From positions 888,464 to 952,463 of the forward strand of contig CAJXSL010000001.1 in the NCBI GenBank assembly GCA_913060875.1: DNA of 64,000 nucleotides. Reading direction: 5' to 3'. Every line of letters begins with the position of its first letter. Position 1 is the stretch's first letter. Origin of the DNA: an uncultured Desulfobacteraceae bacterium (GTDB lineage: Bacteria > Desulfobacterota > Desulfobacteria > Desulfobacterales > UBA5852). The translations under genes were made by a program, and so were the position numbers. Of the stretch, positions 36,822 through 39,172 are shown piece after piece. The notes under the pieces were generated by a model that saw only the letters and a program-made list of their open reading frames with translations, had not been told where the DNA came from and ran no database searches.

Positions 36822-36943
36822 CACGGTCGGGTTTCGATTATGCCGCCATCGATTGCTTTCCGCCCCAGGGGGGCTTAGCATTGGGATATGCACTCCACCT
36901 CTGGTGGAGAACCTGGAGAGGTTTTAATGATAAGGAGTATGAC

Positions 36944-37501
36944 ATGACCATTGATCTCAACGCGGTTCAGGACCAGAAAGTGCAGCTTTCGGACGGCAGC
37001 CGTATCCGTCTCGGGCAGTTGTGGGAGCACCAGACCCTTGTTCTGGTGTTCCTGCGTCATTACGGATGACCCTTCTGTCGCGACCAAGTGGCGCAGTTGC
37101 GCCGCCAGGCCGATGCTTTCAAGGAAGCCGGTGCCCGGGTTGTACTGGTGGGGCTCGGAACCTTGGAAGCGACAAAGGCGTTTCAATCCCGTTTTGACGT
37201 CCCGTTCACCATGATCGCCGATCCGCAGAAGCAATTGTTCAACGCCTTCCAACTCAAGCAGGCCGGCCCCAAAGACCTCCTGTCCCTCGGCATGGCCGCA
37301 AAGGGCTTGTCCGCCATGTTCCGAGGACATCACCTGGGTATCCCCAAAGGGGACGTTCGCCAACTTCCCGGTGTTTTCATTATCGATACGGGCGGCCGGA
37401 TTTGTTTCCGCCATTACGCCCGCAATCCTGCCGATCACCCGTCCGCCGAGGATCTGCTGGTCCGTGTCCGGACGACGTTAAGCCCGCACGCGTCGGCCTG
37501 A
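36944..37501 (+). CDS. Peroxiredoxin-like selenoprotein (UGA read as selenocysteine)
   Basis: A 185-residue thioredoxin-fold protein of the AhpC-TSA/Prx-like group if the in-frame TGA at 37067-37069 is read as selenocysteine (residue 42). The sequence is VLVFLRHYG-U-PFCRDQVAQLRRQ; relatives have CxxC at this place, so U42-x2-C45 is the redox pair. The reading frame continues unbroken for 143 more codons with family-typical ARVVLVGLGTLEATKAFQ, FTMIADPQKQLFNAF and LPGVFIIDTGGRICFRHYARNPADHP. A hairpin suited to a bacterial SECIS lies just downstream. AAGGAG is seven bases before ATG 36944. It should reduce peroxides or disulfides in the cytoplasm. The alternative, a nonsense pseudogene, is much less likely. 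Confidence 0.88.
37067..37103 (+). promoter_or_regulatory. Sec UGA codon and candidate bacterial SECIS element
   Basis: After the UGA at 37067-37069, GGCGC (37090-37094) pairs with GCGCC (37099-37103) around an AGTT loop. The apical loop lies about 25 bases after the UGA and contains a G, as expected for SelB-recognised bacterial SECIS hairpins. A lower stem is possible but less clear. Confidence 0.65.
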
Positions 37502-37636: not shown

Positions 37637-39172
37637 TTAGGCCACCTGCCGCGTGGGGGATTCGACCGCCCGACGCAGGTGGTCGAGGGAATAGGGCAGC
37701 AGAAGCTCGTAAAGATCGATATAGGCCGCGGCAGCCTCCTGATGGGCCTCGCCCTCCATGGCCGCCGCCATGATGCGGTGCAGCTGACGACTCCGGACGG
37801 CGTCGGGCTGATGGTAGAAGGTCATGGCCTGATCGATGGCCCAGTTCAAGCCGTCGGCATCGAATGTTTCAAAGAGGAAACCGTTGCCGCGGTCGTTCGG
37901 CACATCCAGGGGGGAGACGGAATCCTTGATGCCGCCGGTGGCATGGCCCACCGGCAGAGCGCCGTAACGGTGGCCGATCTTGCAGGGCATGCCGCAAGGT
38001 TCGTACTGGACGGGCATGAGCACGAAGTCGGCGGCGGCGAACGCCAAGCGCTGACGGCCGGCATCGAAACCCCATATGGTGACGCGGTCGTCGGCCGCGT
38101 GCTGATGCACCAGTTTGCGGAAATGGGCGTGCAGGTCGCCGTCGGCGATAAAGACCAGTTGCAGGCCTTCGTGGGCATAACGGGCCAGAAGATCGGGCAG
38201 GATGGCTGCCATCAGCCAGCAGCCCCGGCGCCCGCCGCCCAGGCGTGTCGGCCAGAAGAAAAGGGGTGCCCGGGAGTCCATGCGCAGACTGAGAAGCTCC
38301 TGCAGGCGAAGCTTGTTGAAGGCTTTGCCGGAGGCATGGCTGTGGGCGTCGTAGCAGCGAATCAACGAGCTGTCCGTTCGGGGGTTGAAATGGGGGGGCG
38401 GCACCTGCGCAATAGCGGTCAGGCAGCCGTCACGATGTTTGTGGTGCAGTTCTCTCTTGAGGCTCGGGGCAATGAAATCGCATGCCTCATCCATGATTTG
38501 TGCCAGAAAGGTATGGCTGACCGTGTTGACCAGCCCGGCGGCATAGACACCGCTGGCCAGCAGGTCGGCCGGATTGGTATTCCGGGTGTCCTCGTAGCTG
38601 CCGGGCAGGTTGGCATAATAGCAGTGCTGCCAGAAGGCCGCGGCGTCGATGCCGCGTTCCTCGATTGCCACCAGGGGCAACTGGACGGTGTTCAGATTGT
38701 AGAGGGTAAACAGACAGGGGATACCCAGTGCGCGCGCCAGGGGTGGAATCAGGCCCGTCATCCAGTCGTGGCAATGGATCAGGTCCGGCCGCACGGCCGG
38801 CAGGACCTGGTGCATGACTTCCCGCTGGAAGGCCAGGGCAATCTTGATATTCTCCAGGCTTTTGTCCACCAGCAGCTGCTGCGGATAATAAAACGCCCGA
38901 TCCTTGACCAGGTGAATTTGCCGGTCGCTACGGGGGTAAGCGATATTATCCGGCAGATAGACGCACTCGCGGCGGAATATATTGCGATAGTGGGGCATGG
39001 CCACGTGGACATCGGCGCCTGCGGCTCCGAGTTGCTGCACCAGGTTGGCACAAACGTCTCCCAACCCTCCGGCCCGCGCGGCAATCATCCGCATTTCCGA
39101 CACCGTCGGGTCGGGCAGGGCCGAAACCTCGTGGGTCACGATCAGGATGCGTGGATTCGGGGCGGGTGCCAT
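37637..39172 (-). CDS. glgA: Glycogen/starch synthase-type glycosyltransferase (GT5)
   Basis: A 511-residue GT-B enzyme. The N-terminal domain (about 1-255) carries MIAARAGGLGDVCANL (glycine loop for ADP-glucose), DLIHCHDWMTGLIP and NPADLLASGVYAAGLVNTVSHTF. The C-terminal domain has FFWPTRLGGGRRG, ADFVLMPVQYEPCGMPCKIGHRYGALPVGHATGGIKDSV, the E-x7-E-like catalytic region, and a helical tail. Known synthases have Lys-x-Gly-Gly-Leu where this one has Arg-Ala-Gly-Gly-Leu, and most have EPCGLxQ where EPCGMPC occurs. It probably elongates alpha-1,4-glucan. The ATG at 39172 lacks a strong ribosome site. No other glycogen gene is adjacent. Confidence 0.85.
   Translation of the reverse strand: MAPAPNPRILIVTHEVSALPDPTVSEMRMIAARAGGLGDVCANLVQQLGAAGADVHVAMPHYRNIFRRECVYLPDNIAYPRSDRQIHLVKDRAFYYPQQLLVDKSLENIKIALAFQREVMHQVLPAVRPDLIHCHDWMTGLIPPLARALGIPCLFTLYNLNTVQLPLVAIEERGIDAAAFWQHCYYANLPGSYEDTRNTNPADLLASGVYAAGLVNTVSHTFLAQIMDEACDFIAPSLKRELHHKHRDGCLTAIAQVPPPHFNPRTDSSLIRCYDAHSHASGKAFNKLRLQELLSLRMDSRAPLFFWPTRLGGGRRGCWLMAAILPDLLARYAHEGLQLVFIADGDLHAHFRKLVHQHAADDRVTIWGFDAGRQRLAFAAADFVLMPVQYEPCGMPCKIGHRYGALPVGHATGGIKDSVSPLDVPNDRGNGFLFETFDADGLNWAIDQAMTFYHQPDAVRSRQLHRIMAAAMEGEAHQEAAAAYIDLYELLLPYSLDHLRRAVESPTRQVA

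Follow-up and report, generated by a model that had tools for sequence, protein, structure and literature searches.

A reading frame in the genome of an uncultured Desulfobacteraceae bacterium is interrupted by a TGA triplet, which raises the question of whether this triplet terminates translation or specifies selenocysteine (Sec). The frame is located in a stretch of 64,000 nucleotides, which was analyzed as a whole and is referred to as the window. The initial annotation had proposed a UGA-encoded Sec in a peroxiredoxin-like protein, with the frame open on both sides of the TGA at 37067, the family motif CxxC converted to UxxC, and a hairpin with a loop G about 25 bases downstream. Each of these points was upheld by the analyses reported below. 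When TGA is translated as Sec, 36944-37498 codes for a protein of 185 aa with a single internal TGA, followed by the terminal stop codon TGA at 37499-37501. The active-site string is FLRHYG-U-PFC, which belongs to the motif class UxxC. The features of the locus are compiled in Table 1.

Table 1. Coordinates of the putative selenoprotein gene, its predicted signals, and the selD genes of the same genome
Feature	Coordinates	Strand	Remarks
Predicted selenoprotein gene, peroxiredoxin-like/SelL-related redox protein, 185 aa	36944..37501	+	Stop codon TGA included; conservation among homologs extends both 5' and 3' of the internal TGA
Shine-Dalgarno-like AAGGAG	36932..36937	+	6 nt 5' of ATG 36944; from sequence reading
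TGA codon 42, predicted Sec, residue 1 of UPFC	37067..37069	+	TGA at the aligned residue in all 30 top matches within the order; Cys in distant homologs
Cys45 codon, second redox residue of UxxC	37076..37078	+	Cys in 21/22 close relatives, Ala in 1; Ala/Ser in some remoter Sec homologs
bSECIS apical hairpin, 7-bp stem, loop AGUU (37095-37098)	37088..37105	+	Covariation: 4/7 pairs changed on both sides; CAG-TTG invariant
selD (L048 / L049)	G000:C7:188817-189743 / G000:C15:54858-55781		In-frame TGA; active-loop motifs, both genes: GAGUASK, CGUAAK

Homologs carry selenocysteine or cysteine at residue 42

A six-frame search of 291 genomes from the same order returned matches in 127 of them. The best 30 matches in the order (the gene itself and 29 homologs) represent the genus and family of this bacterium as well as many other families, with sequence identities of 30-66%. 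Each has exactly one TGA, which is always aligned to Sec42. The motif is UPFC in 21 and UPFA in one of the 22 close sequences, and UMFA (four), UVFC (three), or UVFS (one) in the eight remoter ones. In the UPFA sequence (L039), which belongs to the close clade, the resolving Cys is gone, while both TGA and SECIS core remain.

Homologs from the same order that lack an in-frame stop have Cys at the position of residue 42 in all 12 cases examined. An alignment-based scan of named genomes, for which Cys codons were back-translated so that Cys homologs alone were expected, returned such homologs as anticipated: 109 Cys-type relatives, 80 of which were kept, from Armatimonadota, Bacteroidota, Chloroflexota, Actinomycetota, and other groups. 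The alignment to Cys-containing homologs, which had been suggested as a check of the initial annotation, thus shows Cys or Sec at residue 42. A scan of genome contigs with the single protein as query gave no match, and the homologs in plasmid records all have less than 60% sequence identity. In a phylogenetic tree, the labels for Sec and for Cys cluster strongly, with two changes each (the tree and the Cys search represent different samples).

Downstream of the TGA, substitutions relative to L019 occur mostly at third codon positions (33/18/75 at positions 1/2/3). Because of this third-position excess, we consider this part of the frame to be under purifying selection at the protein level. Comparison of the sequences confirms the assignment of 36944-37501 as a selenoprotein gene with Sec42; that Sec is inserted at this TGA in the cell, we infer.

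The hairpin downstream of the TGA

In the predicted hairpin GUGGCGC-AGUU-GCGCCGC, the second loop position is G and the third is U, and 25 nt separate the UGA from the loop. Published limits for bacterial SECIS elements (bSECIS) are a spacing of 16-37 nt, a loop of 3-9 nt with a G in the first two positions, a stem of 4-16 bp, and an MFE of at most -7.5 kcal/mol (PMC13188914). With its spacing and its loop G, the hairpin is within these limits. In the single sequence, it is not beyond chance and alone is weak evidence: the fold has z = -1.5, equally good folds were obtained for 16 of 200 shuffles, and a stem of at least 7 bp at an allowed distance occurs for about 8% of the TGA triplets in the window. 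A search against Rfam returned no match in the window.

The hairpin rises above chance because the TGA is invariant in the best 30 matches, the stem covaries, and Cys homologs mostly lack a hairpin. When 22 relatives are aligned, the seven stem pairs are formed in 92.2% of the cells, and four of the pairs are changed on both sides. C-G is replaced by U-A in seven sequences and G-C by C-G in two, along with two additional single cases. The score for covariation, 0.361, exceeds both the mean of 0.238 for shuffled alignments (none of 500 reached 0.361) and the maximum of 0.108 for slid partners. A stem of at least 5 bp at the allowed distance is found in 29 of 30 Sec homologs versus 23 of 80 Cys homologs, where the Mann-Whitney p-value for stem length ignores the relatedness of the sequences.

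Alternatively, the conservation of the hairpin might reflect a constraint on the amino acids (VAQLR) and not an RNA signal. The peptide around the hairpin is indeed conserved, and the Cys homolog L063, which has nearly the same peptide (FGCPFCREQVAQLR), likewise uses CAG-TTG. Its sequence GTG-GCC-CAG-TTG-CGG-ATG, however, breaks the stem at GCC-CAG-TTG-CGG. In addition, the loop-flanking codons CAG-TTG (37094-37099) are fixed in 22 of 22 sequences, even though TTG accounts for only 87 of the 406 Leu codons in these genes. The C-G to U-A swap across the stem goes along with a change from Ala/Thr to Val/Met on one side and from Arg to His/Gln on the other. As amino acids are altered on both sides of the stem, the protein was changed to keep the stem, although the C-G to U-A cases belong to one clade and may represent a single event. 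We thus consider a pure amino acid constraint very unlikely and retain the interpretation of the hairpin as a predicted bSECIS element.

The remoter UVF and UMF clades (L040-L047, with the motifs UMFA, UVFC, and UVFS) have other hairpins, which are nearer to the UGA; several of these sequences have GUCAGCA-GGU-UGCUGA. The position and core of the SECIS element therefore differ between subfamilies.

Protein family and fold

The full-length product scores 166.2 bits against the NCBIfam model NF040769 ("SelL-related redox protein"), for which the curated cut-off is 120. It also matches AhpC-TSA_2 (PF13911; 67.2 bits, cut-off 27) and AhpC-TSA (PF00578; 67.1 bits, well over the cut-off). The match to PF13911 together with (C/U)xxC at the active site assigns the protein to PRXL2/AhpC-TSA_2. 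The protein does not have the PxxxTxxC/U motif of typical peroxiredoxins, as VFLRHYGUPFC has no Thr three residues before the Sec. Nor does it have the UxxU of SelL, the motif UPFC having one Sec only.

The AlphaFold2 model has a pLDDT of 87.4 and a pTM of 0.85. The top structural (VIA) match is the human prostamide/PGF synthase (PGFS; 9usa), with Z 21.4 and an rmsd of 2.0 over 160 aligned residues; PrxQ/Bcp peroxiredoxins are next in the ranking (Z 19-20). Foldseek was also run. PGFS is the first hit in a profile search against the PDB as well (E 3.8e-21), with its Cys44-x-x-Cys47 aligned to Sec42-x-x-Cys45. According to the model, the first central strand is followed by the first long helix, and Sec42 would be located at the N-terminal end of this helix, the place of the redox Cys in the PRXL2/prostamide-F-synthase and peroxiredoxin families.

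The fold also bears on the possibility that the UGA is a genuine stop codon. A short peptide would then end at codon 41, and a second protein of 137 aa would start from GTG 37088. Such a GTG-started frame exists (37088-37501), but the protein encoded by it would be without the initial strands and without the active site of a fold that matches PGFS over its whole length (residues 4-180). Furthermore, both halves are conserved in homologs, and homologs with Cys in place of the TGA have one continuous frame. Termination at codon 41 is therefore highly improbable, even more so than the amino acid constraint discussed above.

Selenocysteine machinery and other putative selenoproteins

The initial annotation had predicted that selA, selB, selC, and selD are encoded elsewhere in the genome, and all four were found. 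Neither of the results named as refuting that annotation (a genome without selB/selC, or homologs without Cys or Sec at residue 42) was thus obtained. The genome (5.88 Mb, 99.7% complete) has a selC gene above the cut-off (75.6 bits), which ARAGORN also identifies as tRNA-Sec with anticodon TCA, a full-length selB (355.6 bits), and selA (616.4 bits). There are two selD genes, both above the cut-off, each with one in-frame TGA in the N-terminal active loop (see Table 1). Three FdhA-like regions have one TGA each inside an otherwise open frame, and one TGA inside an otherwise open frame is also found in several HdrA-like regions. The presence of selA, selB, selC, and selD and the in-frame TGAs in selD, FdhA-like, and HdrA-like genes indicate that the organism is a Sec user with several putative selenoproteins.

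One region (G000:C4:242811-248681) has HdrA-like regions and an FdhA-like gene within about 6 kb, several of them with one in-frame TGA. This is a probable selenoprotein cluster.

A pseudogene or a sequencing error, in which a Cys codon (TGC or TGT, one base apart from TGA and thus compatible with a misreading as long as the sequence is read alone) had been mutated or misread so that the gene appears broken, is refuted, as independent genomes share this TGA without exception (it is found in each of the 30 best matches, which cover many families and genera within the order and sequence identities down to 30%), is contradicted by the purifying selection that persists 3' of the TGA and by the decoding of UGA elsewhere in the genome (selD, FdhA-like genes), and has hardly any probability left.

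Predicted decoding, chemistry, and role

We consider it nearly certain that the gene codes for a cytosolic-type selenoprotein with a peroxiredoxin fold, in which hairpin-bound SelB and Sec-tRNA(Sec) would insert Sec at UGA42. When a ribosome arrives at the UGA of codon 42, SelB with its Sec-tRNA(Sec) would be bound to the hairpin 25 nt downstream, and Sec would be inserted in place of termination. Sequence comparison backs this reading: the frame is coding, the UGA is invariant, the hairpin covaries, and selA, selB, selC, and selD are present.

By analogy to the PRXL2 and peroxiredoxin families, Sec42 and Cys45 likely form a two-residue redox couple, and the protein is likely a Sec-based peroxidase or thiol-disulfide reductase. 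The selenolate of Sec42 would attack a peroxide or disulfide, Cys45 would resolve the intermediate by forming a Sec42-Cys45 selenenylsulfide, and this would be reduced by a thioredoxin-like partner. The most likely physiological role is peroxide defence in a Sec-using bacterium. Not all members of the family have a Sec-Cys couple, as the UxxA and UxxS homologs show; the second Cys can thus be lost in this family, and resolution may proceed differently. For the UxxA and UxxS relatives, a cycle that uses one Sec and an external thiol is possible.

Comparison to known selenoproteins

The initial annotation had expected that standard annotation would split the gene. This applies to a gene caller that respects the stop and thus truncates the gene, but not to the curated model NF040769, the cut-off of which is passed by the full-length product and which is matched by all 28 aligned homologs. 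Because this model exists and the full-length product passes it, an annotation pipeline that supports Sec may call the gene correctly. As the family is already modelled and the bacterium has many such proteins, we consider the gene a sound but ordinary example of a predicted selenoprotein. Its analysis corrects the annotation where a caller of the stop-respecting kind would shorten the gene, and the Sec-rich selenoproteome of the order gains a well-supported member whose SECIS element covaries.

Human PGFS (9us9, 9usa), of the PRXL2 family, is the best PDB match both by profile and by structure, and its Cys44/Cys47 correspond to Sec42/Cys45. Sequence identity, however, is only 21-25%, and a prostaglandin substrate is not implied. 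FAM213A and PGFS belong to one family (PRXL2). The Sec of bird SELU (FAM213A) corresponds to a Cys in mammals (PMC4466519). A difference from PRXL2/SELENOU is that the bacterial SECIS element sits inside the coding region. SelL proper has UxxU and holds a diselenide (PMC2397514), whereas the protein described here has UPFC with a single Sec.

The selenoprotein inventory from a study on Olavius symbionts contains a peroxiredoxin-like selenoprotein (cd02970) with the motif UxxS (PMC13188914). By description, this is similar in being peroxiredoxin-like, of AhpC/TSA type, with Sec at the first motif position, but the gene analyzed here has UxxC (UPFC); the remote homolog L046 has UxxS. UxxC proteins described as Prx-like thiol:disulfide oxidoreductases or as Redoxin-family proteins are also known from such inventories (PMC13188914; PMC1794560). 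With the Prx-like thiol:disulfide oxidoreductase selenoproteins of Deltaproteobacteria (PF00578), the gene has UxxC and AhpC-TSA in common, again by description (PMC1794560; PMC13188914). The table in PMC13188914 lists cd02970 as UxxS only, without NF040769, PF13911, or UPFC under its own name, so that the UPFC form is at most an unlisted subfamily. For SelL-related redox proteins, a model already exists at NCBI. That the UPFC clade represents a separately unlisted Sec subfamily, with its own nearly fixed SECIS core (GCAGUUGC) which differs from those of UMFA/UVFC in position and loop, and that it is the bacterial Sec counterpart of vertebrate SELENOU, is conceivable but rather doubtful. The side-by-side occurrence of UxxC, UxxA, and UxxS provides a natural set for studying if redox enzymes of the PRXL2 type require their second Cys.

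Gene neighborhood and additional TGA-containing frames

The upstream antiporter, the downstream glycogen-synthase-like gene, and a response regulator were not found beside homologs within about 1.5 kb. As there is no conserved neighbor, the context gives no functional hint. The glycogen/starch-synthase-like protein is encoded on the reverse strand (37637-39172 in the window) and scores below the cut-offs of all GlgA models (e.g., 221.7 vs. 328 bits).

The window also contains other TGA-interrupted frames with a Cys near the TGA. Among the weaker matches in the order (E > ~1e-10), many are of the thioredoxin fold, 70-290 codons long, and also have one TGA, so that this order may have additional thioredoxin-like families that use Sec.
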